Source of the DNA: a virus
Length of the DNA: 23,977 nt
Direction: 5' to 3' (one strand)
Virus record (IMG/VR): IMGVR_UViG_3300009436_000113
Span: 1 to 23,977 of that record
Shown here: positions 1-23,164 of the stretch, piece by piece
Position numbering within the stretch: the stretch's first letter is position 1
Layout: each line of letters begins with the position of its first letter
Notes under the pieces: generated by a model
What the model was told of the DNA's origin: nothing
Seen by the model: only the letters and a program-made list of their open reading frames with translations
Database searches by the model: none
Made by a program: the position numbers and the translations under genes

Positions 1-578
1 TATGTATCGTTAATATGGTTAGGCTCTTGTCTATACACATGTCTAAGTCCACGTTCAATGTGGTCTAGTCTACAACGTGGGTGTGGTCTAAATACTATAG
101 GACGGTCTGTGTGTTTGCGTATTTCATCGTAAGTGTTTAGAAACCAATTACTCATACGTGGCATGCCTTGCCATTGTAAACTTTTATCATGTTGTCCACA
201 TACAAGAATATGTTGGCCATCGTTAGTCCAACGTTTTGCTTCAAGTCCTAGTAAGTCTGCTCTAGTACTGTCGTTGCCTTTAGCACCAAAGTTAGCATCG
301 CTGTTAATACCATTGATGCCTACTTTCCATGTAGTGCCTCTTTGAATTCCGCCTACTTCTAATACTATTACAGGTTTGTTTATTGCTCGGAAGTGTTCCC
401 AGACTTTTTGGTTTCCAGCCATTCTGCCAAACCAAAGCACACTCCAAATAACAGCAACATCGCAATCCCAGTCATTAACAGTAACGGTATGGCCAGCACT
501 ATGCAAACTAGTTGCAAAAGCGTCAAACACTGGTTTACTATTCTGTGCACCATTCTCTGTAAATAAACTAAACTTCAT
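1..578 (-). CDS. GT-B-like surface-sugar protein, 3' end cut by window edge
   Basis: This reading frame starts with ATG at 578 and stays open to base 1, so the C-terminal part lies outside the window. The start overlaps the preceding gene by 11 bases, and AAGGAG lies about 12 bases upstream. The visible ~192 residues include a CDVAV segment near residue 40 and a block near residues 126-172 running from ILVCGQ through a Trp and a helix to RPIVFRPHPR. The same block occurs in the 1380-2327 gene (ILLCLQ ... RPIIIRPHPG) and, more weakly, in the 2324-3319 gene. The three are therefore tandem paralogs. The pattern resembles GT-B glycosyltransferases or capsule-polysaccharide transferases; the nucleotide-sugar half would lie in the missing part. 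The donor and acceptor are unknown. It is the last visible gene of the sugar cassette. Confidence 0.8.
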   Translation of the reverse strand, partial: MKFSLFTENGAQNSKPVFDAFATSLHSAGHTVTVNDWDCDVAVIWSVLWFGRMAGNQKVWEHFRAINKPVIVLEVGGIQRGTTWKVGINGINSDANFGAKGNDSTRADLLGLEAKRWTNDGQHILVCGQHDKSLQWQGMPRMSNWFLNTYDEIRKHTDRPIVFRPHPRCRLDHIERGLRHVYRQEPNHINDT

Positions 579-1383
579 TCCAATATGACTCGCTCCTTGG
601 CTGTAGTAAGTCTTTCTTTCGACTCCTACCTTCTTGCTTTCTTACACCTTTAAGATGATCAAAGAATGCGCCAAGTTCACAATTAATTAACGGATGACCT
701 TCTCCGTTTACAAGATGTCCGCTGAAGTCTTTAATGTTTTTATGTTCTATTCTAATTTTCTTTAGGACTTGATCAAACACATAACTGTCATGCCATTCTT
801 CCATCTTAAAGATTCCGTCATCAGCTTCTTCGTAAACTCTTTCAAACTCTTTTAGGAATGCATCGCACCCTGGAGTTCTAAGTGTAAGTCCGTACCACCC
901 GCACTCAGGCCATTTTTTATTTCTACCTAAGTAGTGTAACCATTGTGATGCAGGTATTAAATTTCTAAATTGTCCGTAAGTAATAGGACTGTGTACATAT
1001 GTATCACCGTCAATCCAAACTAGAATATCTGTGTTAGGATCTTGTGCGGCTTCAAATACTGCATATGTTTTGTTTGCAAAACGTACTGCGTCCCACTTAA
1101 ACTTCTTATGATGATCTCTTGGGCGTCTAGCAGGCCAAGGACATATACCATTTGCTTTAGGATCGTCTTTGTGTCTTTCTTTAAATGCATTAAGTTTTGG
1201 TAATACTTCTTTAGCATTTACAACTTTGATATTTGCACCTGGTGGTACAACAGGAATACAATCTTCTGCATATACTACTAGCTCAACTGCCGGGTGTACG
1301 TTCTTAGCCCAACTATCAATAAGACGTTGTCCGTATTCTTCTAATCCTGGTTGATGAAATGTTGTTATACATTTTATTCTCAT
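568..1383 (-). CDS. GT-A type glycosyltransferase-like protein
   Basis: A 271-residue protein beginning MRIKCITTFH. The frame is open upstream to 1449, but ATG at 1383 is chosen because it gives a 4-base ATGA overlap with the stop of the upstream gene, the coupling used elsewhere in this cassette; the longer start would lie 70 bases inside that gene. The segment DILVWIDGDTYV (about residues 119-130) is a hydrophobic strand ending in a D-G-D motif, the usual metal and nucleotide-sugar site of GT-A glycosyltransferases. It is preceded by a basic HHKKFKWDAVRF helix. No signal peptide or membrane segment is seen, so it should act in the host cytoplasm. The function is inferred from fold-like motifs; the sugar is unknown. 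Confidence 0.75.
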   Translation of the reverse strand: MRIKCITTFHQPGLEEYGQRLIDSWAKNVHPAVELVVYAEDCIPVVPPGANIKVVNAKEVLPKLNAFKERHKDDPKANGICPWPARRPRDHHKKFKWDAVRFANKTYAVFEAAQDPNTDILVWIDGDTYVHSPITYGQFRNLIPASQWLHYLGRNKKWPECGWYGLTLRTPGCDAFLKEFERVYEEADDGIFKMEEWHDSYVFDQVLKKIRIEHKNIKDFSGHLVNGEGHPLINCELGAFFDHLKGVRKQEGRSRKKDLLQPRSESYWNEV

Positions 1384-2327
1384 TTTACGTATCTCCTCAT
1401 CCATTCCCATGCTTCGCCACTTTTTAAGTCTGCAAAACTCCAATGGCATTGTGATATTTTTCTAATCCATTTTTCTCTATCAAACGGTCTTAATTTTGAC
1501 AATGCATCTATTCTTTGAAAGCATACTTCTTGTACTTGACTTGCTTGCCAGTCTTCGCATATAACAGGAACACCTTCTATAATACTAGCTACACCTGGGC
1601 TACTGTTGTACACAATAGAACAATGTGCAGTTGCTAGGTCTTGTGCAATGTCTGGTTGAAAACTAATTCTAATGTTGTCGCCTGTGATTCTTTTTACATA
1701 CTCAGGTGCTTTTTTATCTCCTGGGTGTGGTCTAATAATAATAGGTCTAGTTGTGTACTGTCTAATCTCTGCAATTTTAGTATTAGCCCAAGTAACAACA
1801 TCTTTACCTTTCATGCTCCAACCACCATTACGTTGTAAACATAATAAAATATTATCTCTGTTATTATAGTCCCATGGCTTTAGTTTAACACCTAAGTCAC
1901 GTTGTATCTTTTCCCATTGTGCATCACCTGGCTCTTCATTGCAATACTCTGCGGTGTTAGCAAACACTCCATCATAACTATAACGTAAGTAATGATGTGG
2001 TTCATTTTGTTTTGCTTTGTATAAAAATAAGTTACTATCTGCTGTAATAAAACGTTTGTTAGCTGTGTTACTTGCAATACTTCTGCGTAAGTTAATGTGT
2101 GGTACTGCTTGACTGTCTTCGTGCATAAAGCCTTGCATAACAGCTACGTCACATGCCATTGTATCAAATCCATCATATACCAACCCGTTGTCCCCCGACA
2201 CCCTGACTCCTGATATAAAATTTTTGATAATATCTAATTTATGATTTGGTTTAATTGGTCTACCCGGCTTAGGTAACTTGCCTTTGTTCCCAGGTGGTAT
2301 AACTTTAGTGTAACCTATAACTCTCAT
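1380..2327 (-). CDS. GT-B-like surface-polysaccharide transferase, paralog 2
   Basis: A 315-residue protein starting by ATGA overlap with the gene upstream. The C-terminal half has the layout of a GT-B nucleotide-sugar domain: ILLCLQ near residue 160, RPIIIRPHPGD at about 194-204, then YNSSPGVASIIEGVPVI at about 240-256. The last block fits the NSxxxxEAxxxGxPV pattern of capsule or Kdo-type transferases, where a small-residue loop and a glutamate hold the donor. It shares the RP-R-HP block with the gene at 1-578 and the YNS-GxP block with the gene at 2324-3319, so these look like duplicated genes that diverged. It probably decorates lipopolysaccharide, capsule or a virion protein; the substrate cannot be read from the sequence. 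Confidence 0.7.
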   Translation of the reverse strand: MRVIGYTKVIPPGNKGKLPKPGRPIKPNHKLDIIKNFISGVRVSGDNGLVYDGFDTMACDVAVMQGFMHEDSQAVPHINLRRSIASNTANKRFITADSNLFLYKAKQNEPHHYLRYSYDGVFANTAEYCNEEPGDAQWEKIQRDLGVKLKPWDYNNRDNILLCLQRNGGWSMKGKDVVTWANTKIAEIRQYTTRPIIIRPHPGDKKAPEYVKRITGDNIRISFQPDIAQDLATAHCSIVYNSSPGVASIIEGVPVICEDWQASQVQEVCFQRIDALSKLRPFDREKWIRKISQCHWSFADLKSGEAWEWMRRYVK

Positions 2328-3319
2328 TTTACTATGCTCCAGGCGTAACCACTTAACATTTCATCATATGTAAATTGGTTATTAGATAGGTATCTACACA
2401 AATAAGTTAACTGTTTCCTCCCTGGATGCTCAGCAAATTCAATTCTCTTTAAACTAGTTTCGCAAATATCTTGAGCACAATTTGGTCCTAGCACTACGGC
2501 AGGTTTACCATATATCATTGCTTCAAGTGCGGCAATACTGTTGTATGTTACTAGGCAATGTACATCATCTGCAAGTGCCTGCTCCATTGTGTTAACACTA
2601 ACACGATCTTCTCTACTTGGCTTCTTACGTAGCTGTACAGGTCTTGATGTGTTCTTTCTAATAGTAGCAATAGTTTGATCGATCCATGTGTCCAAGTCTT
2701 GATCAAAGTATTTCATTACCTTTTCGCTTGGTGGTACTACTAATATTTTACGTCCTGGTGTTGCGTCTTTAAATGGAATAGCTAATGAATTCCAACGTCC
2801 GCCACCATACCATTTATCTGATCCTGGTTGCTCTCTGTCAGGCATGTGTAAGTTTTGTAATGCATTTTTTACAATTCTATGATAAGTTTTTTTACCATTT
2901 GGATTACGTGTACTTGGATTGTTACCTACATAACCTGTGTCCATAAAGTAGAAATCTCTACCACGTTCAATACACATCTTAATTAATTTTTGTTTGCCTA
3001 GTCCTCTAACTAGTAATGGAGTATCATCTTCCCAATCAACATCGTCAGCACGAATATACTTACCGCCACTACCTAGTGCCATGCCCATTACAAAAGAATC
3101 AATAAGTCCAAAAGAACCTTTAACTTTCTTTTCTACTTTTTTAATTCCGCTGTCTACACATATTACTGGAGGGTTTTTTACTTCTTGGAAAACTTCTGAA
3201 ACTGCTTCTACAGCATGCCTTTGTTCTCCAGTTGCAACGCTGTGCAAAATCTTATCTATCATTTCTTTTAAATGTGGTCTAATCACTCTGGTATCCCATT
3301 CGCCTGTATTTTGTTCCAT
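2324..3319 (-). CDS. GT-B-like surface-polysaccharide transferase, paralog 1
   Basis: A 331-residue protein whose start lies one base after the stop of the upstream glycosyltransferase, with no clear Shine-Dalgarno sequence, so translation is probably coupled. The C-terminal half shows ILVVPPSEK near residue 192, a helix ending SRPVQLRKKPS at about 225-235, and VTYNSIAALEAMIYGKPAVVLG at about 257-278, matching the donor-site pattern of the two downstream paralogs. The first ~65 residues (acidic and basic helices) have no counterpart in them. The RPHP block is altered here to RKKPS, so substrate or activity may differ. Role inferred: transfer of a sugar or sugar phosphate in surface-glycan building. 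Confidence 0.65.
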   Translation of the reverse strand: MEQNTGEWDTRVIRPHLKEMIDKILHSVATGEQRHAVEAVSEVFQEVKNPPVICVDSGIKKVEKKVKGSFGLIDSFVMGMALGSGGKYIRADDVDWEDDTPLLVRGLGKQKLIKMCIERGRDFYFMDTGYVGNNPSTRNPNGKKTYHRIVKNALQNLHMPDREQPGSDKWYGGGRWNSLAIPFKDATPGRKILVVPPSEKVMKYFDQDLDTWIDQTIATIRKNTSRPVQLRKKPSREDRVSVNTMEQALADDVHCLVTYNSIAALEAMIYGKPAVVLGPNCAQDICETSLKRIEFAEHPGRKQLTYLCRYLSNNQFTYDEMLSGYAWSIVK

Positions 3320-3320
3320 A

Positions 3321-4001
3321 TTATCTATCCATCATTTGATATAAATTGTCTTTCCATTCTTGAGCAAATTCACAATTCCGATAGTTCTCAAACCAAGGTC
3401 CACCTTCTGTATAATGAATAAGATTAGGCTTTTCAATATCATCATACACACCTACTAGATAGTTCCATGTGTGATCTAATTCTCCTAGATACGCATCATC
3501 TTCAAGCCAACTAAATCTGTGGAAGTATGCTCCGTTTAATTCGTTACTGTTTACCATGTCTTGTGTAAGTCTAGCATTTTGTGGATGTTCGCAGTTGAAC
3601 AGCATTACACTTGACCAATTCTTACGTGGATAAACTGTTTGTTTTTGTCCGTCCATCTTAGTACCTTCTTGTACTTCGTAATCATGTTTAACACACATAA
3701 CAGCATATTTGTCGTCTGCTTGATCAAATAATTTTTGTATGTCTGTTTGTAAAATCATATCACAGTCTATAAACAATGCCCAACCTTTAAAGTTTGTAAG
3801 CTCTGGAACTAGGAATCTTGTGAATGTAAATTCAGTACTTGCTAGTTTGTCAATTGGTCTTTTATACCAACCAGAGTCTCTTAACTCTTGTTGTTTTAAT
3901 GAATGTACACTTACGTTTTTACTTTGAGTTTGGATACTGTGTTTACATACTTGGTATGCAATATCTTCTCTTGGATCGTATCCTACAAATACTTTATTCA
4001 T
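3321..4001 (-). CDS. GT8-like glycosyltransferase (GT-A fold)
   Basis: A 226-residue protein starting MNKVFVGYDPRED, the typical opening of GT8-like enzymes. WALFIDCDM (about residues 74-82) carries the D-x-D motif that binds metal and nucleotide-sugar. The late segment IHYTEGGPWFENY (about 195-207) matches the HxxGGPWF signature common in phage and bacterial GT8-type proteins. The start is an ATGA overlap with the methyltransferase stop, giving translational coupling. It is soluble, with no signal peptide. Retaining hexosyl transfer is the family's usual chemistry; donor and acceptor here are unknown. Confidence 0.82.
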   Translation of the reverse strand: MNKVFVGYDPREDIAYQVCKHSIQTQSKNVSVHSLKQQELRDSGWYKRPIDKLASTEFTFTRFLVPELTNFKGWALFIDCDMILQTDIQKLFDQADDKYAVMCVKHDYEVQEGTKMDGQKQTVYPRKNWSSVMLFNCEHPQNARLTQDMVNSNELNGAYFHRFSWLEDDAYLGELDHTWNYLVGVYDDIEKPNLIHYTEGGPWFENYRNCEFAQEWKDNLYQMMDR

Positions 4002-4672
4002 GCTTTGACCTTCCTAACATATACTGCGGTTCTATCAATAGTATGTATCTCAAGAGAGGTGCCAAACACCTCATGAAAGGCTTTTTGACTTCCACGCCAA
4101 CTGTTATAGTCGTCTAAAACCATGTAACCACCTACGTTTAATAACGGCCATAGTGTTAATAATTCTTGTAATGTACTTTCATACCAGTCGGTATCTAAGC
4201 GTAATAATGCAATATTTTTTGGTAAATTATTCTTATCTAATAGTGTTTGTTCAACAGGACCTTTAATAAAATTGCACTGATGTGGAGGAATATATTTGAA
4301 TACATTAGTACTAACTTCTCCAATTTCTGCTCTGCACCACTGATCGAAACCGTGCTTTGCTTTGCGACTAAACCTTGCATGTGTTACTGCACCTAGTTCA
4401 TTTATTTTATGATCATGTACAGTTGGTTCTGTCATGCCTTCAAATGTATCGTATAACCAAAAGTTTCTATTTGTTTTATTATTAGCTAACCAAGCACTAA
4501 TAATTTGTCCGCCCTTCCATACTCCACACTCAACTATATCGCCTGTAATATTATTAGCGTCAAGGTCTCTTACAGCCCGTATAGTCTGTGTTATACGTTG
4601 TCCGCTTGTCATTGTATACGGAGCAACTTCTTCTACTATACGAAGCTCTTTTTTAGTTGGGACGAATTCCAT
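3998..4672 (-). CDS. TylF/macrocin O-methyltransferase family protein
   Basis: A 224-residue SAM-dependent methyltransferase. Motif I, GDIVECGVWKGG (about residues 44-55), forms the SAM loop. LYDTFEGM and LLRLDTDWYEST (about 157-168) match the acidic strands of the TylF family, where LDxDWYxST is diagnostic, and GGYMVLDDYNSW (about 181-192) follows. TylF enzymes methylate sugar hydroxyls. The position between a nucleotidyltransferase and glycosyltransferases fits O-methylation of a phage-directed sugar. The start overlaps the upstream stop by one base (TAATG), so the two are coupled. The acceptor sugar is unknown. Confidence 0.85.
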   Translation of the reverse strand: MEFVPTKKELRIVEEVAPYTMTSGQRITQTIRAVRDLDANNITGDIVECGVWKGGQIISAWLANNKTNRNFWLYDTFEGMTEPTVHDHKINELGAVTHARFSRKAKHGFDQWCRAEIGEVSTNVFKYIPPHQCNFIKGPVEQTLLDKNNLPKNIALLRLDTDWYESTLQELLTLWPLLNVGGYMVLDDYNSWRGSQKAFHEVFGTSLEIHTIDRTAVYVRKVKA

Positions 4673-5484
4673 TATACTGGCGATCCTTCATGCCACTGAT
4701 CATACTCGTAATCTGGAACACCACGTCTTTCAATATCTTCTTCTATACATTGTTCGCCACGTTGTATTTCTAGTATATGTGCATTTACTTTACCAGGGTT
4801 ACTTGGTAAGTGCCATACTTCTTTAGCAATATCATAAGGAACACTTTTTGGTGTTAAGTAAACAATTTCTTGTCTGCCTTCCCATTCGGTTACCATTTTA
4901 ACTTCGCCTTCAAGTACGTTCCATTGTTCACTACGTTTAAAATGTTTTTGGTCGCTTAGACGTTTGCCTGGATATATTACAAGCTCTTTTACTTTGTAAC
5001 CTTGTTCGGGTTTGTCATCTAGTACACGCCAATAACCCCAATCACGTTCTGTCTTTTGTGTCTTCCACTCGTCTAGTATCCAACTGCTACTATTCATTTT
5101 GTTTTCTCCACCTACCCCAAATTCAAAATGGACTTGAGGATGGTCGCCGTATATTTTGTACTCTGGAGTTGTTGTATTAGTTCTGTCACCGCCATTAGCA
5201 AAAATAACTTTTCCTACTTCGGTTGACATGGTATGGAATATTGCATGACATGCTGAATCGTCTTCATCGTCAAAGCCTATAACTTTGTCTACGATGGCAA
5301 GTTCACTTATGATTGCAAGTCTTTCTTTAAAGGACATGAAAGGCCGACCCTTTTTTCGAGTCAGCCATTCATCTGAGTTTACTGCAACAATTAGTTTATC
5401 ACCTAATTGTTTTGCGGCCTTGAAGTATTCAATATGGCCGGAATGTAAGGGATCGAACCCACCTGTCACTAGTACGTTTATCAT
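4672..5484 (-). CDS. Cytidylyltransferase-like domain fused to a C-terminal cupin
   Basis: A 270-residue two-domain protein. Residues 1-125 form a nucleotidyltransferase: VTGGFDPLHSGH carries the HxGH catalytic motif (H14 and H17), VAVNSDEWL follows, and KMNSSS near residue 128 stands where TagD/RfaE-type enzymes have their second motif, so CMP or AMP activation of a phosphorylated polyol or sugar is likely. Residues ~145-255 look like a double-stranded beta-helix cupin with H-x-KRSEQWNVLEGE and a final VWHLPSN strand, similar to the C-terminal isomerase half of mannose-1-phosphate guanylyltransferases. It may make an activated sugar for the downstream transferases. There is no Shine-Dalgarno sequence; TTTAAATA lies 5 bases before the ATG. 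The family is confident; substrate and cupin activity are not. Confidence 0.82.
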   Translation of the reverse strand: MINVLVTGGFDPLHSGHIEYFKAAKQLGDKLIVAVNSDEWLTRKKGRPFMSFKERLAIISELAIVDKVIGFDDEDDSACHAIFHTMSTEVGKVIFANGGDRTNTTTPEYKIYGDHPQVHFEFGVGGENKMNSSSWILDEWKTQKTERDWGYWRVLDDKPEQGYKVKELVIYPGKRLSDQKHFKRSEQWNVLEGEVKMVTEWEGRQEIVYLTPKSVPYDIAKEVWHLPSNPGKVNAHILEIQRGEQCIEEDIERRGVPDYEYDQWHEGSPV

Positions 5485-17426: not shown

Positions 17427-18056
17427 TTAACTTGCGCCGCCGCCTGTAATAGCTGTGTTAACTGTACGTCCGATTGCTGTTCCTACGCCTGTACCTTGTG
17501 GGCTTTGAATAGCGTTATCGTAGCGTATTGCTAGTGCAACAGTTACTGGATCGTTAGTAGAGTAAGACAAGCTGTTATAGTTTGCTGACTCTAAGTAACA
17601 ACCATACAATTCAAATGTCTCTAGTACACTTGCTGTATTAGCACCGTTACCACCGTCTAATATTTCAATTCTTGTAACGAATTTGTAATCGCTACCTGAC
17701 GCCGCCGAACTTTGTTCGAAGAAGTCAAATTGTTTCTGTAGTTGCTCGCCAACAAGTTTTTGTACGTTGTTACTAACATCTTCACGTAAGTTAAGTGTAA
17801 TTGGTTCCCAAGTGTGTTTACCTGCTAGGTATACACGTGAGTTATACACGTCTACTGTGATCTGTTCGAAACTAACGTTTGGTCTTGTTACGTCTACAAC
17901 CTGTTTGGTTAGTTCTGTTGTTGGTGTTGATACTCCAAAATTTTCAAGACTCACTCTAAAGCGGTATTGTAGTTTCGGCATCAACAAACCTTGGTTACTA
18001 GCTGAAGAGCTAGAATCCAAAGGTACTGTAATTTTGCTTAGTGTTGAAATTGCCAT
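17427..18056 (-). CDS. gp19: gp19 tail tube protein
   Basis: A 209-residue tail tube monomer. LQYRFRVSLENFG opens the beta-barrel, followed by VVDVTRPNVSFEQITVDVYNS and AGKHTWEPITLNLRED, the typical gp19 sequence, then a strand set VTRIEILDGG and a C-terminal FELYGCYLESANYNSLSYSTN. Length compares with 163 in T4, with extra residues mainly at the ends. It stacks as hexamer rings inside the sheath. It begins 33 bases after the sheath stop, with its own GATAAATA box (18079-18086) and AGGAG, and ends at a strong terminator, consistent with high, separate expression. Confidence 0.94.
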   Translation of the reverse strand: MAISTLSKITVPLDSSSSASNQGLLMPKLQYRFRVSLENFGVSTPTTELTKQVVDVTRPNVSFEQITVDVYNSRVYLAGKHTWEPITLNLREDVSNNVQKLVGEQLQKQFDFFEQSSAASGSDYKFVTRIEILDGGNGANTASVLETFELYGCYLESANYNSLSYSTNDPVTVALAIRYDNAIQSPQGTGVGTAIGRTVNTAITGGGAS

Positions 18057-18089: not shown

Positions 18090-21000
18090 TTAAAGCCCTG
18101 CTATCTCACCAGTGTTTTTAAGCCTTAATGGAATGTAAATAAACTCCACTGCTTTCACTGGTTCAATTGCTACGTCTAAGTAAAGTTCATTTCTATCAAT
18201 TCTACTTGGAGTATTGTTACTTTCGTCACATACTACTAAGAAGTCATATAATGCTCTTTGTCCTACTAGCTCTAATAGTAAACTATCTGCCTGTGCTTTA
18301 ATCTCATCACGTGTGATTTTGTCATTTGGCTCAAAGATATAAGGTTTAGCAAGTTTGTTAAACTGCGAACGTAAGTAAATTACTAGTCTTGCAACGTTGA
18401 TTCTGTCTAAAGCACTAGCATTTTTAGCTCTTGTCTTTTGACCAAAGTTAACAAGTCCTGCACCACTTAAGAACGTTACAGGGTTAATAGCATTACCGTA
18501 TAATGTATCACGCTGTCCTTCGTTAAGTGCTACGCTTTGGAATTCACCTTCGCTTGTAATGTATCCTGCACTTGAAGCATTTGTAATTCCACCACGTCTT
18601 GTTCCTGCTGGAGCAAACCATGGAAACGATACTTGATCGCTTAATGCCATTGTGCGTAGTATACCATGACTTGCTGGAACAACTACGTTGTTACCTGCGT
18701 TATCACTTGAGAATAAACTTGGATAAAACACACCTAAGTATTCATCAAATGTAACTAATCCATCGTCATTATCTTCTACTGCAAGATTTACGTTAGTTGC
18801 ATATTCGTTTAATGAAGTTGCATCTGGTGTTAATCTAAACGGTAAGTCACCTACAACAAACGCACTAATGCCTCTATCATAGTTAAGTGTTTTCATTTCA
18901 CCAATTAGCTCTGAGTAACCTGGGCAAGCCATCAAGTTAAAGATTCTTGAATTATCATCTCTAATATCAGCGTTGCTGTTAACCATTGCTTGTAATGCTT
19001 GTACTACAACTTTACGTTGGGCTTTTCTACCAAACGAGCCTGCACCATTTTCTTGGTTAGCTGATTCAGTTACCCATCTATTAGTTGCGTATGCCGCCAT
19101 TGACTCATCATTGTTAAATCTAATGTTAAGTCCTGAAGTATCAATATAGTTACGTACATATTTCTTAACGTTAAATCCTGAACGTCTCATGTTCCATAGC
19201 AACATACCTTTTGGATATAGTGCTGGATCCGGAGCGTCAAAGTCTAAGAAGTTGCTTACTAGTAATGCAGGGATCGTTGCCGCTGTATCACCGTTAACAC
19301 CACTTGTACCATAACGTGCATCTGCAAATAATATACCATCTTCAGTAGTTTGGTCACCTGTATCAAGTGCAATCCACTTTAATGAAGTAGCGTTGTATTT
19401 GTAAATTTTTGGATAGTTTTCTAAGTCTGCTGTACTAATCCAAATGTCACCATTTTTAAGATCAGTTGCATCTGACTGTTTAGTAGGCTCAGTAGCACTA
19501 ACAATTGGTCCTGCTGGATCAGTTTTGTCTGCACTATTAGCATCGTAGAACGGTGCTGTTGAGTCTTGGTAACCTACCCAAGTAGTACCATTGTGTATCA
19601 TCATATCTACTTCGTCTACAATACTGTTGTACCATAATGCACCGTCAGCTGTTAATGCTGTTGGAGCAGTTGTACTTGGTGTGTATGTTAAGTATTTCCA
19701 GTTACTAGCAACCATATCAAATGCATTACCTGAAGCATCTGTATATAAGTTTGGAGTTGCTGTTGCTGAATTTGAACCATTGTAAGCTACAAATCCTGCT
19801 AAAGCTAATCCGCTGTTAGTATCTGTAATGTGGATGTCACCACCGTCATTGTGTTCAATAACTACTCTGTTTGAAGCGTCAACACTTGCTACAACGTTAG
19901 TTAATCCTGCGGAGTTAATTGCACCTGCAATATCGTCTGCATCGTCAGCCGCACCGTTAGTTGTTACACTAATTGTTACTGCCGCACTTAACGTAGCACT
20001 TGCTGGAGCAGTTTCTGCAATATCAAATGCATAAGTGCCAGTAGTTACTTGTGTTGTAATAATGTCTGAAGTAATTTTAGTATTACCTGTTGACTGTCTT
20101 CTGTGTATTTTAAAGTCACCAATTGGATTAGCTGATTCATCATTGCTAGTTTTGATGTAAACAGTTCCAACTGCTAAGTTCTTACCACCGCCTGCTTTAT
20201 CTAAGCCGTATAATGCCGCCTCAGGTGTTGCATACATTGGTGCCATTTTAGTTTCCCACAAGTTAGTTGTTGCGTTCCAAACTTTAACTTTCCAGTTAGC
20301 ACCTAAGTTAGGTTGTGTAGTTTTAACCCAAATACTTCCAGTTGGTCTTGGAGCAGTATCTGTTGACTTGTACTCAGGTACACTAGTATGCGGAGCAATA
20401 GTATTTTTAGGTGCTTTATAAGTAGCCGCCGTTAAACCAATCTCTGCTAATAGTGTTGAAGCGTTAGTTGCTAATACAACGTCTGCGCCTGTTGAGTAAA
20501 TCTCTAATTTGTTGTTAACAACTACTGAACTAATTCCAGCAATACCTGCTGAACCAATAGCTGTTTGAACATCACTTAATGCTGTTCCGCCACTTGTTAC
20601 AACAGTACCGTTAATGCTCATTGAAGCACCGCCAGTAATAGTTGGATTTGAAATTGTTCCTGTTACAGTTGCCCATGAACTAATCCATGCTGTTGATCCT
20701 ACTTGTACCCAACTACCATCGCTCTTTTTATAGAACAATTTGTTAAGTGTAGTAGTAGCAACAATAGCGTAGTCACCAATTGCACCAACAGAAGTTTTTG
20801 GTGTGCCGCCTGTTACTTTAGTAGTATCTGTAATTACTGTAGGAACTTTATTCGTAAAGCTCTGTCCACCAGTAACAGTACCCGCCGCGCCGTTCCATTC
20901 AAAAATACCAAACACACTATTTGCTGTATCAAACCAATATGTGCCATCTGCTGGATTTGCCGCTGGCGCACTCGCAGAAGCCATTAGCTCTGATGTGTTT

Positions 21001-21341
21001 AGTGTTGCTCTAGTTACGTAAGCTCTGTTAGCTACTCCTAAATATGAGTAGGCCGCTTGTAACCCGTATTCGTTTAATTCACTACCATGTAGTGCGTTGT
21101 TGTTTGTGTCCGTATAGAAAGTCGGATCTCCAAACAAGTCTGTTAATTCTCTTTGTGAGGTAACCAAATAAGGTTTACCTGCATTTGCCGCAATCGTTGC
21201 CGACGCAGTCCCTGTTCCAGCACCGTTTTTCTTGTCTTGTGCGGAAACAACAAAAATCATTGGTACTGTACCTGGCTCAGCTGGTGTATAGAAACTTTCG
21301 TCTATAACGCTGACCTGTACTCCTGGTGATACTAAAGCCAT
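18090..21341 (-). CDS. gp18: gp18 tail sheath protein with a large modular insertion
   Basis: A 1083-residue sheath, versus 659 in T4. Residues 1-115 (MALVSPGVQVSVIDESF, RELTDLFGDP, GLQAAYSYLGVANRAYVTRA) and ~670-1083 (ARYGTSG onward, ending RNELYLDVAIEPVKAVEFIYIPLRL) match gp18; the C-terminal part forms the contractile core. Residues ~116-665 are an insertion made of short modules of the form G-x-x-W-x(12-20)-W/Y-x(5-8)-W, at about 132, 188, 334, 566 and 630, alternating with two IN-type modules at about 228-303 and 449-518. These probably lie on the sheath surface. A perfect TATAAATA box and AGGAG precede the ATG. Confidence 0.95.
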   Translation of the reverse strand: MALVSPGVQVSVIDESFYTPAEPGTVPMIFVVSAQDKKNGAGTGTASATIAANAGKPYLVTSQRELTDLFGDPTFYTDTNNNALHGSELNEYGLQAAYSYLGVANRAYVTRATLNTSELMASASAPAANPADGTYWFDTANSVFGIFEWNGAAGTVTGGQSFTNKVPTVITDTTKVTGGTPKTSVGAIGDYAIVATTTLNKLFYKKSDGSWVQVGSTAWISSWATVTGTISNPTITGGASMSINGTVVTSGGTALSDVQTAIGSAGIAGISSVVVNNKLEIYSTGADVVLATNASTLLAEIGLTAATYKAPKNTIAPHTSVPEYKSTDTAPRPTGSIWVKTTQPNLGANWKVKVWNATTNLWETKMAPMYATPEAALYGLDKAGGGKNLAVGTVYIKTSNDESANPIGDFKIHRRQSTGNTKITSDIITTQVTTGTYAFDIAETAPASATLSAAVTISVTTNGAADDADDIAGAINSAGLTNVVASVDASNRVVIEHNDGGDIHITDTNSGLALAGFVAYNGSNSATATPNLYTDASGNAFDMVASNWKYLTYTPSTTAPTALTADGALWYNSIVDEVDMMIHNGTTWVGYQDSTAPFYDANSADKTDPAGPIVSATEPTKQSDATDLKNGDIWISTADLENYPKIYKYNATSLKWIALDTGDQTTEDGILFADARYGTSGVNGDTAATIPALLVSNFLDFDAPDPALYPKGMLLWNMRRSGFNVKKYVRNYIDTSGLNIRFNNDESMAAYATNRWVTESANQENGAGSFGRKAQRKVVVQALQAMVNSNADIRDDNSRIFNLMACPGYSELIGEMKTLNYDRGISAFVVGDLPFRLTPDATSLNEYATNVNLAVEDNDDGLVTFDEYLGVFYPSLFSSDNAGNNVVVPASHGILRTMALSDQVSFPWFAPAGTRRGGITNASSAGYITSEGEFQSVALNEGQRDTLYGNAINPVTFLSGAGLVNFGQKTRAKNASALDRINVARLVIYLRSQFNKLAKPYIFEPNDKITRDEIKAQADSLLLELVGQRALYDFLVVCDESNNTPSRIDRNELYLDVAIEPVKAVEFIYIPLRLKNTGEIAGL

Positions 21342-21451: not shown

Positions 21452-21790
21452 ATGAGACCTTTATGTAAATGTGGCGTTAAACCTGTAGCAATTAACTATT
21501 ATAAAAAAGGAAAACCGTTTTATAGGAGTAAGTGTGAGTCATGTCTTAGACATGGCAAGCCTGTACATGGTGCTCCTAAGTGGAAACAGTCTGGTTATGA
21601 AAAGAAACAGATTTGTGACAAGTGCGGATTTAAAAGCAAACACAAAGAACAGTTTTCAGTATACTATATTGACGGTGATCTTAATAATGTAAGATTTAGT
21701 AACTTAAAAACAATATGTGCTAATTGTAGTAAAATTATGTACAAAGAAGGATTTAAATGGAAGCAAGGTGATTTGCTACCTGACTTCTAA
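21452..21790 (+). CDS. Small HNH-like zinc-finger protein, probable degenerate nuclease
   Basis: A 112-residue protein beginning MRPLCKCGVKP. The frame is open from 21389, but ATG at 21452 is chosen because this is where the conserved sequence starts and because the longer start would lie at the gp18 promoter. C5, C7, C28 and C31 form one likely zinc site; C55, C58, C89 and C92 form a second. Between them FSVYYIDGDLNN and SNLKTICANC follow the HNH pattern, but the usual catalytic His-His is Tyr-Tyr (71-72), so cleavage is doubtful. A similar small gene sits near the sheath gene in marine T4-like phages (from memory). It runs opposite to its neighbours and overlaps the 3' end of dNMP kinase by 38 bases. 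Confidence 0.85.
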   Translation: MRPLCKCGVKPVAINYYKKGKPFYRSKCESCLRHGKPVHGAPKWKQSGYEKKQICDKCGFKSKHKEQFSVYYIDGDLNNVRFSNLKTICANCSKIMYKEGFKWKQGDLLPDF

Positions 21791-22346
21791 GTTCGTCAAT
21801 AGTACCATTGTTTTCTAATGTTTGTGAAAATTTAGTATGAGCCCAAGCCCATTCGCTAGGGTGTATGTCACTAGGCTCTGTATCAAACTCAACATACTCT
21901 GTAAACCACTTAGGATCTTGTCCACGTTTTACACGCCATACATGTCCGCCTACTTCATGTAGCATTTTTGCTTCATTAGGAAAACGTGTATCAGGTAATA
22001 CCCAATTAATGTTTGGATTGTCAATAATTTTCTGCTTTACTAGGGATACCCAAATACCATCATAGAATCCGTTACGCATACATTCTGTACCAAATTCTTG
22101 TAATACTAATCTAGGTGTAATTGTACGTCCAGTTTCTTTTGTCCAAAACTCGTCTACTTTCTCACGCCATTCTCTAGATTCTGTTGTTTTGCCATCAAGC
22201 ATATCTCTGCTCCACCCAAACATAACGCCTACGCTATCTTTAAGTTTATCTGCAAATGATATCTTTTGGAAATTATGTTCACTAATCAAATAATCAGCAA
22301 TAGTATCTTTACCGCTACCAATTAACCCACATACACCAATAATCAA
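21753..22346 (-). CDS. gp1: dNMP kinase, T4 gp1-like
   Basis: A ~197-residue P-loop kinase that phosphorylates deoxynucleoside monophosphates for phage DNA synthesis. GLIGSGKDTIADYL at the N-terminus is Walker A, LVLQEFGTECMRNGF matches the LMQALGTD region of T4 gp1, WVLPDTRFPNEA matches the PDTR segment, and the end (LENNGTIDELRSQV) matches too. TTG at 22346 is chosen as start: a GAGGAG site lies 7 bases ahead of it and the residue count before the P-loop equals that of T4 gp1. ATG at 22361 is the alternative, but it lies only ~5 bases from the predicted transcription start. The sigma70-like promoter suggests early expression within a late region. Confidence 0.88.
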   Translation of the reverse strand: MIIGVCGLIGSGKDTIADYLISEHNFQKISFADKLKDSVGVMFGWSRDMLDGKTTESREWREKVDEFWTKETGRTITPRLVLQEFGTECMRNGFYDGIWVSLVKQKIIDNPNINWVLPDTRFPNEAKMLHEVGGHVWRVKRGQDPKWFTEYVEFDTEPSDIHPSEWAWAHTKFSQTLENNGTIDELRSQVANHLASI

Positions 22347-22372
22347 AGTCTGACTCCTCATAAAATAAAACT

Positions 22373-22408: not shown

Positions 22409-23164
22409 TTAACCGATTGTGAATCCGTAGCCTACGCCGCCAGCAACATTTAGTTTTAGTTCTTCTTCTAACTTTTCCATTTCAGCTTGTGCTTCTGCTT
22501 TGAGTGCATCACCGTTAAGCGTTGAACCACCTTGTGGTCCTGCAATGGTTGCGAACTTACTACGTGCTTCGCCTAGCATATACTTACAACTAGCAAGGGT
22601 ATAATCTTTAATCCATTGCTTACCAAGATAGTCTTTAAGTAATTCACTATCTGGTCTGTGATTGTAAACATATAGCAGTAATGTTTCTTCTGCTCTAGGT
22701 CTTTGTAAAACTGTTAATTTTTTAGTTGTAGTATTCCAATTAAATTCGATAAAAGAACCAAACATACGTCCTACAAGTTCTTGGTACTGACTAAACATAT
22801 CATATGTTGCTAGTCCGCCCATGTTAGAACTTGATAACAAGTAAGTGTTAGTGTATGCCATGTTGAATGGTTCAAACAATGTACCACCATCGCCGCCACC
22901 TGAACGTGAACCAATTGAACGTCTAAATAATTTTCTAACTTCAGTTACTTCTTCTGGTAACGTATATTCATTTTGGTCAATTATTGTAGGCATAAAAAGA
23001 TATGACTCTTCAACTGAGTTATCTGAACGCTGTCTAAATTTGCCAAGGGCTTTTTCTAGTGCAGTTTCATAATGAATAGGGTCAAGTTCAACATCGACCA
23101 TGCCTCCGCCTAACATAGCGTTTACATAATCGAATACATCTTGTTTTTGTGTGCTTAATGCCAT
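22409..23164 (-). CDS. gp13: gp13 neck protein
   Basis: A 251-residue neck protein, compared with 309 in T4. DVFDYVNAMLGGGMVDVELD with PIHYETALEKALGKFRQRS matches the N-terminal helices of gp13, and EYTLPEEVTEVRKLFRRS and ETLLLYVYNHRPD follow. The C-terminal helix is Glu-rich (QAEMEKLEEELKLN). gp13 and gp14 form the collar that closes the head before the tail attaches. CATAAATA lies 17 bases before the ATG with GGAGAA between. It is divergent from gp14; the two are more often on one strand in T4-like genomes, as far as I know. Confidence 0.85.
   Translation of the reverse strand: MALSTQKQDVFDYVNAMLGGGMVDVELDPIHYETALEKALGKFRQRSDNSVEESYLFMPTIIDQNEYTLPEEVTEVRKLFRRSIGSRSGGGDGGTLFEPFNMAYTNTYLLSSSNMGGLATYDMFSQYQELVGRMFGSFIEFNWNTTTKKLTVLQRPRAEETLLLYVYNHRPDSELLKDYLGKQWIKDYTLASCKYMLGEARSKFATIAGPQGGSTLNGDALKAEAQAEMEKLEEELKLNVAGGVGYGFTIG

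Follow-up and report, generated by a model that had tools for sequence, protein, structure and literature searches.

A tail sheath of a jumbo-type phage lineage with a modular insertion of W-type units and flagellin/hook-type modules

The tail sheath of a phage related to PA5oct, RaK2, and Atu_ph07 carries, between N- and C-terminal core parts, an insertion of about 550 residues that contains two families of internal repeats: W-type units and IN modules of the flagellin/hook type. Its gene lies in a 24 kb virus record (IMG/VR IMGVR_UViG_3300009436_000113; the full stretch of 23,977 nucleotides analyzed is termed the window), with no larger genome behind it. The modular insertion is real and is not peculiar to the window phage, its layout being shared by the whole phage lineage. 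We consider it reasonably probable that the insertion constitutes a separately folding outer arm, which lies outside the contraction machinery and makes lateral virion contacts; the outward position and the contact role are inferred.

Identity of the sheath gene

The gene encodes the contractile tail sheath of a jumbo-type myovirus. The family phrog_10581, "tail sheath", spans the entire 1083-residue protein (E 1.5e-222), and the sheath C-terminal domain PF17482 matches residues 976-1072 (E 3.7e-14; 53.1 bits against a cutoff of 26.9), as it also does in 48 of 48 sheath relatives. Profile matches to solved structures include T4 gp18 (8.2e-27), while a Foldseek search with the sheath model returned T4 (E 3.6e-20) and Afp2 (TM 0.63 by target length); the core fold, built by both termini, is common to T4, AFP, and T6SS-like sheaths. 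The gene adjoins that of the tail tube. Downstream of the sheath lie the tube gene and a gene for another tube-like protein, and upstream those for a dNMP kinase and Ad2 (Table 1). This gene order matches that around the sheath of the jumbo phage PA5oct, whose sheath homologue carries an annotation of detection by ESI-MS/MS. Between sheath and tube, PA5oct has a gene for a Hef-like homing endonuclease (L084:5733-7349), which the window lacks.

Elsewhere in the window, a run of sugar-related genes occupies 568-5484 on the minus strand, including a glycosyltransferase family 8 gene (3321-4001), a TylF-type methyltransferase gene (3998-4672), and a gene (4672-5484) for a fusion of a cytidylyltransferase with a mannose-6-phosphate isomerase-type domain; the ORFs beside them at 568-3319 have no Pfam match. 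A peroxiredoxin-like gene (Redoxin PF08534; 5500-6084, minus strand) lies between the sugar genes and recombination genes.

Table 1. Positions in the window of the sheath gene, the parts of its product, and neighboring genes.
Feature	Residues	Position	Strand	Remarks
Tail tube protein		17427..18056	-	phrog_4542; 44% identity to PA5oct tube
Tail sheath gene		18090..21341	-	ORF of 1083 aa
C-terminal core	666-1083	18093..19346	-	contains PF17482 at 976-1072
Insertion (putative outer arm)	116-665	19347..20996	-	folds alone in prediction; 382-695 aa in 87 relatives
W5 unit	614-662	19356..19502	-	hhalign W3 41, W1 30
W4 unit	548-594	19560..19700	-	hhalign with W1 45; 103/103 sheaths
IN2, flagellin/hook IN-type module	428-520	19782..20060	-	self-match with IN1; PF07196 10.4 bits, below cutoff
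W6 unit, without tryptophan	382-427	20061..20198	-	hhalign W5 22, W3 20; three predicted strands
W3 unit	322-368	20238..20378	-	hhalign with W5 41
IN1, flagellin/hook IN-type module	222-308	20418..20678	-	self-match with IN2; consensus to PF07196
W2 unit (doubtful member)	180-218	20688..20804	-	three predicted strands 191-213
W1 unit	118-156	20874..20990	-	hhalign W4 45, W5 30; 103/103 sheaths
N-terminal core	1-115	20997..21341	-	T4 gp18 41-88 alignment (weak); conserved in all relatives
Deoxynucleoside monophosphate kinase		21753..22361	-	PF21448; 36% identity to PA5oct; conserved sheath neighborhood
Head-tail adaptor Ad2		22409..23164	-	phrog_211; 47% identity to PA5oct

Position and fold of the insertion

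Alignment by hhalign places T4 gp18 residues 424-648 on sheath residues 842-1078 with a probability of 99.7, and T4 residues 41-~88 weakly on residues 57-~113 (probability 19). By this alignment the insertion starts where domains II and I of T4 gp18 start, and the boundaries that a first-pass annotation had proposed between gp18-like N- and C-terminal parts, at about residues 116 and 665, prove to be about right. In T4, domain I protrudes outward and has no contacts between subunits; its binding partners are the baseplate and the retracted fibers (PMC3004832). Because the insertion occupies the site of these outward domains, the arm is likely to lie on the outside of the sheath.

AlphaFold modeled the whole sheath (87 homologous rows) with a pLDDT of 90.5, and residues 116-668 alone with a pLDDT of 93.8 and a pTM of 0.82; the monomer prediction that the first-pass annotation had called for thus has the insertion folding independently. 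Six W-type units and two IN modules stand between the N and C core in the model, and a three-strand pattern, read by eye, is predicted in each of the six units. Homology of the insertion to T4 domains I-II was considered and rejected, no T4 sheath appearing among the Foldseek matches listed for it.

Two repeat families

Internal repeats, on which the modular reading of the first-pass annotation depended, were found by profile self-comparison in two families. When 4950 pairs of non-overlapping 50-residue slices were compared by hhalign, nearly all of the best pairs joined IN1 (221-305) to IN2 (431-520), W1 (118-150) to W4 (550-590), or W3 (322-366) to W5 (612-660), and pairs of core with core were absent from the top scores. 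A second hhalign comparison set the units against control segments of the core, after two control pairs with residues in common had been left out: W1-W4, W3-W5, W1-W5, W5-W6, and W3-W6 scored from 45 down to 20 (Table 1), against 17 for the best true core control. One repeat family thus comprises W1, W3, W4, and W5 together with a further unit at 382-427. Four of the five W modules originally proposed, at about residues 132, 334, 566, and 630, stand; the fifth, at about 188 (W2), does not score above the background of the core controls and is rejected as a certain member, while the sixth unit at 382-427, which lacks tryptophan, had been overlooked.

Composition points in the same direction: the insertion has six G-x-x-W motifs where shuffling gives 1.25 (p about 0.001), and tryptophan is 4.5 times commoner there than in the core. 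With an iterated W profile, every one of 103 non-redundant sheaths showed exactly two copies (W1 and W4), and the shuffled and reversed decoys gave no match. A chance origin of the repeats is rejected on the strength of the slice test, the control test, the profiles, and the G-x-x-W shuffles. Pfam returned no Ig domain in the sheath, and antibody matches to the insertion in Foldseek had a probability of at most 0.18 among the matches listed.

For the IN modules, a profile made from IN1 recovered IN2, and an iterated IN profile found 165 copies in 95 of the 103 sheaths, zero to three in each, against a single decoy match. The window's own copies lie below the cutoff of Flagellin_IN (PF07196; 22.7 bits), with no match for IN1 and 10.4 bits for IN2. 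The family consensus passes it (33.2 bits, E 5.8e-8), as does an Atu_ph07 module (25.9 bits), and nine of 48 full-length relatives match Flagellin_IN at E<0.1, the best at 1.8e-6. Against solved structures, the IN profile matched the flagellar cap protein FliD best (E 0.0015 and 0.0034). Flagellins rank first among the Foldseek matches listed for the insertion (E 2e-3 to 5e-3, probability 0.99-1.00), albeit with low TM-scores over the long query. These signals of flagellar kinship are modest, but independent and of one direction. The proposal of two modules of flagellar hook type is accordingly borne out by the self-match, by the match of the consensus to Flagellin_IN, and by the Foldseek flagellins.

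Conservation and layout among relatives

At least 595 relatives of the sheath occur in IMG/VR. Sheath length, a comparison also suggested at the outset, is 1078-1098 aa in the complete members of the nearest 80 of these; wider sampling extends the range to 879-1211 aa, with insertions of 382-695 aa among 87 relatives. Still larger cyanophage sheaths, S-CBWM1 (1492 aa) and S-TIM5 (1137 aa), are found among BFVD matches. As single queries of viral contigs, the Vibrio 2.275.O and SCTP-2 sheaths returned no relative, although an alignment-based search found some. When the fetched loci were searched for modules in further proteins close to the sheath, the matches were all sheath reading frames that are broken or partial; in contigs L147 and L092 the sheath reading frames are interrupted or cut, probably through assembly errors or as fragments.

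Where the W scaffold is constant, the number and placement of IN modules vary. Counted before and after W3 in the 103 sheaths, one plus one is the commonest layout (65), followed by zero plus one (25) and zero plus zero (8); two plus zero (3), one plus zero (1), and three plus zero (1) are rarer. On a tree of the core alone, IN layout needs about 12 changes against 35 for shuffled labels, a count that is rough because the tree is a quick one in which some long branches meet, and because any divergent IN copy that escaped the profile would be scored as a loss.

Purifying selection acts on the insertion, which drifts two to three times faster than the core. Among 87 pairs whose synonymous sites are not saturated, dN/dS amounts to 0.08 in the N core, 0.10 in the C core, and 0.20 in the whole insertion, within which IN1 (0.25) and IN2 (0.29) exceed the W units (0.13-0.19); these values are descriptive, since many pairs reuse the same few sequences.

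The same units in other virion proteins

The first-pass annotation pointed to similar W-rich units in fiber proteins of marine phages, and for this jumbo lineage the statement is right, since W units occur near the N-termini (residues ~55-135) of tail-fiber-type proteins in the jumbo genomes searched. Carriers are found in Atu_ph07, Phosso, PA5oct (gp317, annotated ESI-MS/MS), and IMG/VR relatives, one of whose proteins also carries a Collar domain. An IN module, for its part, is present in the PA5oct virion structural protein gp181 (L175:1147-3120; E 2.4e-9), while the iterated IN profile detected none in the PA5oct sheath.

Possible roles of the putative outer arm

In the reading that we propose, the N- and C-terminal core parts would assemble into the helical sheath that surrounds the tube and would power contraction, and the arm of ~550 residues would emerge at the site of the exposed domains I and II of T4 gp18. 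Its chain of three-stranded W-type units would be a conserved scaffold, carrying at two positions the flagellin/hook IN modules as the variable part. The arm would thus stand outside the extended tail, take no essential part in contraction, and make lateral virion contacts. Support comes from the match of the insertion point to T4 domains I-II, from the folding of the arm alone in prediction, from the conservation of the W units beside variable IN modules that drift faster than the core, and from the resemblance of the IN modules to outer flagellar modules and the sharing of W units with fiber proteins. Relatives provide a further argument: among RaK2-like phages, CBB bears hair-like filaments along the sheath, for which its authors could not name the genes (PMC5259590), as does phAPEC6, at three rings (PMC7247149). 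Against it, three rings of filaments in phAPEC6 contrast with an arm on every sheath subunit, whiskers are borne mainly on the capsid in Atu_ph07 (PMC6102473), and the N-terminal alignment to T4 is weak.

As to what the arm contacts, our best single guess, a tentative one, is that it may dock fibers or whiskers along the tail, much as T4 domain I binds the retracted long tail fibers; stabilization and adhesion follow close behind. Sheath stabilization, in which arms would touch those of neighboring subunits, is possible but somewhat unlikely. An invariant W scaffold would suit it, and for domain II of phage 812 a stabilizing role is suggested by Evseev et al. 2022 (PMC9230969); contracted tails are, moreover, rarely found on CBB particles, from which their authors infer high stability (PMC5259590). 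However, T4 domain I makes no inter-subunit contacts (PMC3004832), and the fast drift and the gain and loss of the IN part ill suit a tight interface there.

Adhesion is doubtful: hundreds of exposed modules would weakly bind host-envelope glycans, flagella, or particles, and so hold the phage near cells. The probable exposure of the arm, its W-rich beta units, and the faster drift of the IN modules are all in keeping with this, and such a role is proposed for Ig-like sheath domains in the same paper (PMC9230969). Yet neither the whole sheath nor any single unit matches a carbohydrate-binding family in Pfam, and no positive selection was seen. Across phages with many different hosts the module tryptophans hardly vary, which would be easier to reconcile with a structural role than with a binding site specific to the host.

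It is very unlikely that the insertion is merely tolerated without a selected role, for although its rate is relaxed relative to the core, purifying selection acts throughout (dN/dS 0.13-0.29) and the W scaffold is retained in relatives only about 35% identical. Hardly credible is the earlier suggestion of a site of rapid exchange, at which cassette-like swapping of modules would diversify the surface: IN modules do vary in number and slot among distant relatives, and a few pairs have an IN1 identity far under the core trend, but module identity otherwise tracks core identity (r 0.61-0.78), falls smoothly toward module centers in the five pairs profiled, with no abrupt block swap seen in them, dN/dS is low, and layouts are clade-bound.

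Returning to an outer arm that makes lateral contacts, a broader and rather improbable extension is that sheaths and flagella, both polymers with a conserved core, share a module type as their exposed outer layer, through exchange or common origin, and that in these phages the W units of sheath and fibers dock fibers or whiskers in line along the sheath.

Whatever the arm contacts, the large multi-domain sheaths of a jumbo lineage common in metagenomes gain an anatomy, a fixed scaffold of W units with optional flagellin-type modules in defined slots, and the role of the extra domains therefore becomes testable via single modules in a cultured relative. Surface modules of sheath, fiber, and flagellum also become linked, although a new mechanism is not demonstrated by this anatomy.

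Comparison with known systems

Multi-domain sheaths, this family included, were already modeled by Evseev et al. 2022 (PMC9230969), whose Type 3 comprises the sheaths of Agrobacterium phage Atu_ph07, Salicola phage SCTP-2, and Klebsiella phage RaK2, in which the N- and C-terminal core is conserved and several extra domains lie between. In its predicted structure the window sheath shares with this class at least three domains, the extras lying between N and C core. In the excerpted text of that paper, the Atu_ph07 sheath has 1086 aa and five or more domains, the extra domains are described as mainly Ig-like, without W units or Flagellin_IN being named, and sheath and flagellin are compared in general layout (conserved termini) rather than in module homology. 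In the open-licence literature we found no report of Flagellin_IN modules in a sheath, which is weak evidence of absence. Atu_ph07 and its kin carry both IN modules before W3, whereas the window sheath carries one on either side.

T4 gp18 resembles the window sheath in its core, where equivalents of domains III and IV are present, and in its insertion site; its domains I-II, however, amount to 258 residues (88-345), and the arm has no sequence match to them, nor a fold match among the Foldseek matches listed. The Flagellin_IN modules of FliD, flagellar hook proteins, and flagellin outer domains share with the sheath IN modules a pattern of strand, ING, strand, helix, and strand, but the sheath copies sit inserted in a phage sheath, and those of the window fall below the Pfam cutoff. 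The fiber proteins of the lineage, finally, bear the same GxLWyD...lkvyxGtxWv unit as the sheath, often in tandem; in fibers the W units precede the fiber repeats, whereas in the sheath they are spread through the inserted arm with IN modules between them.
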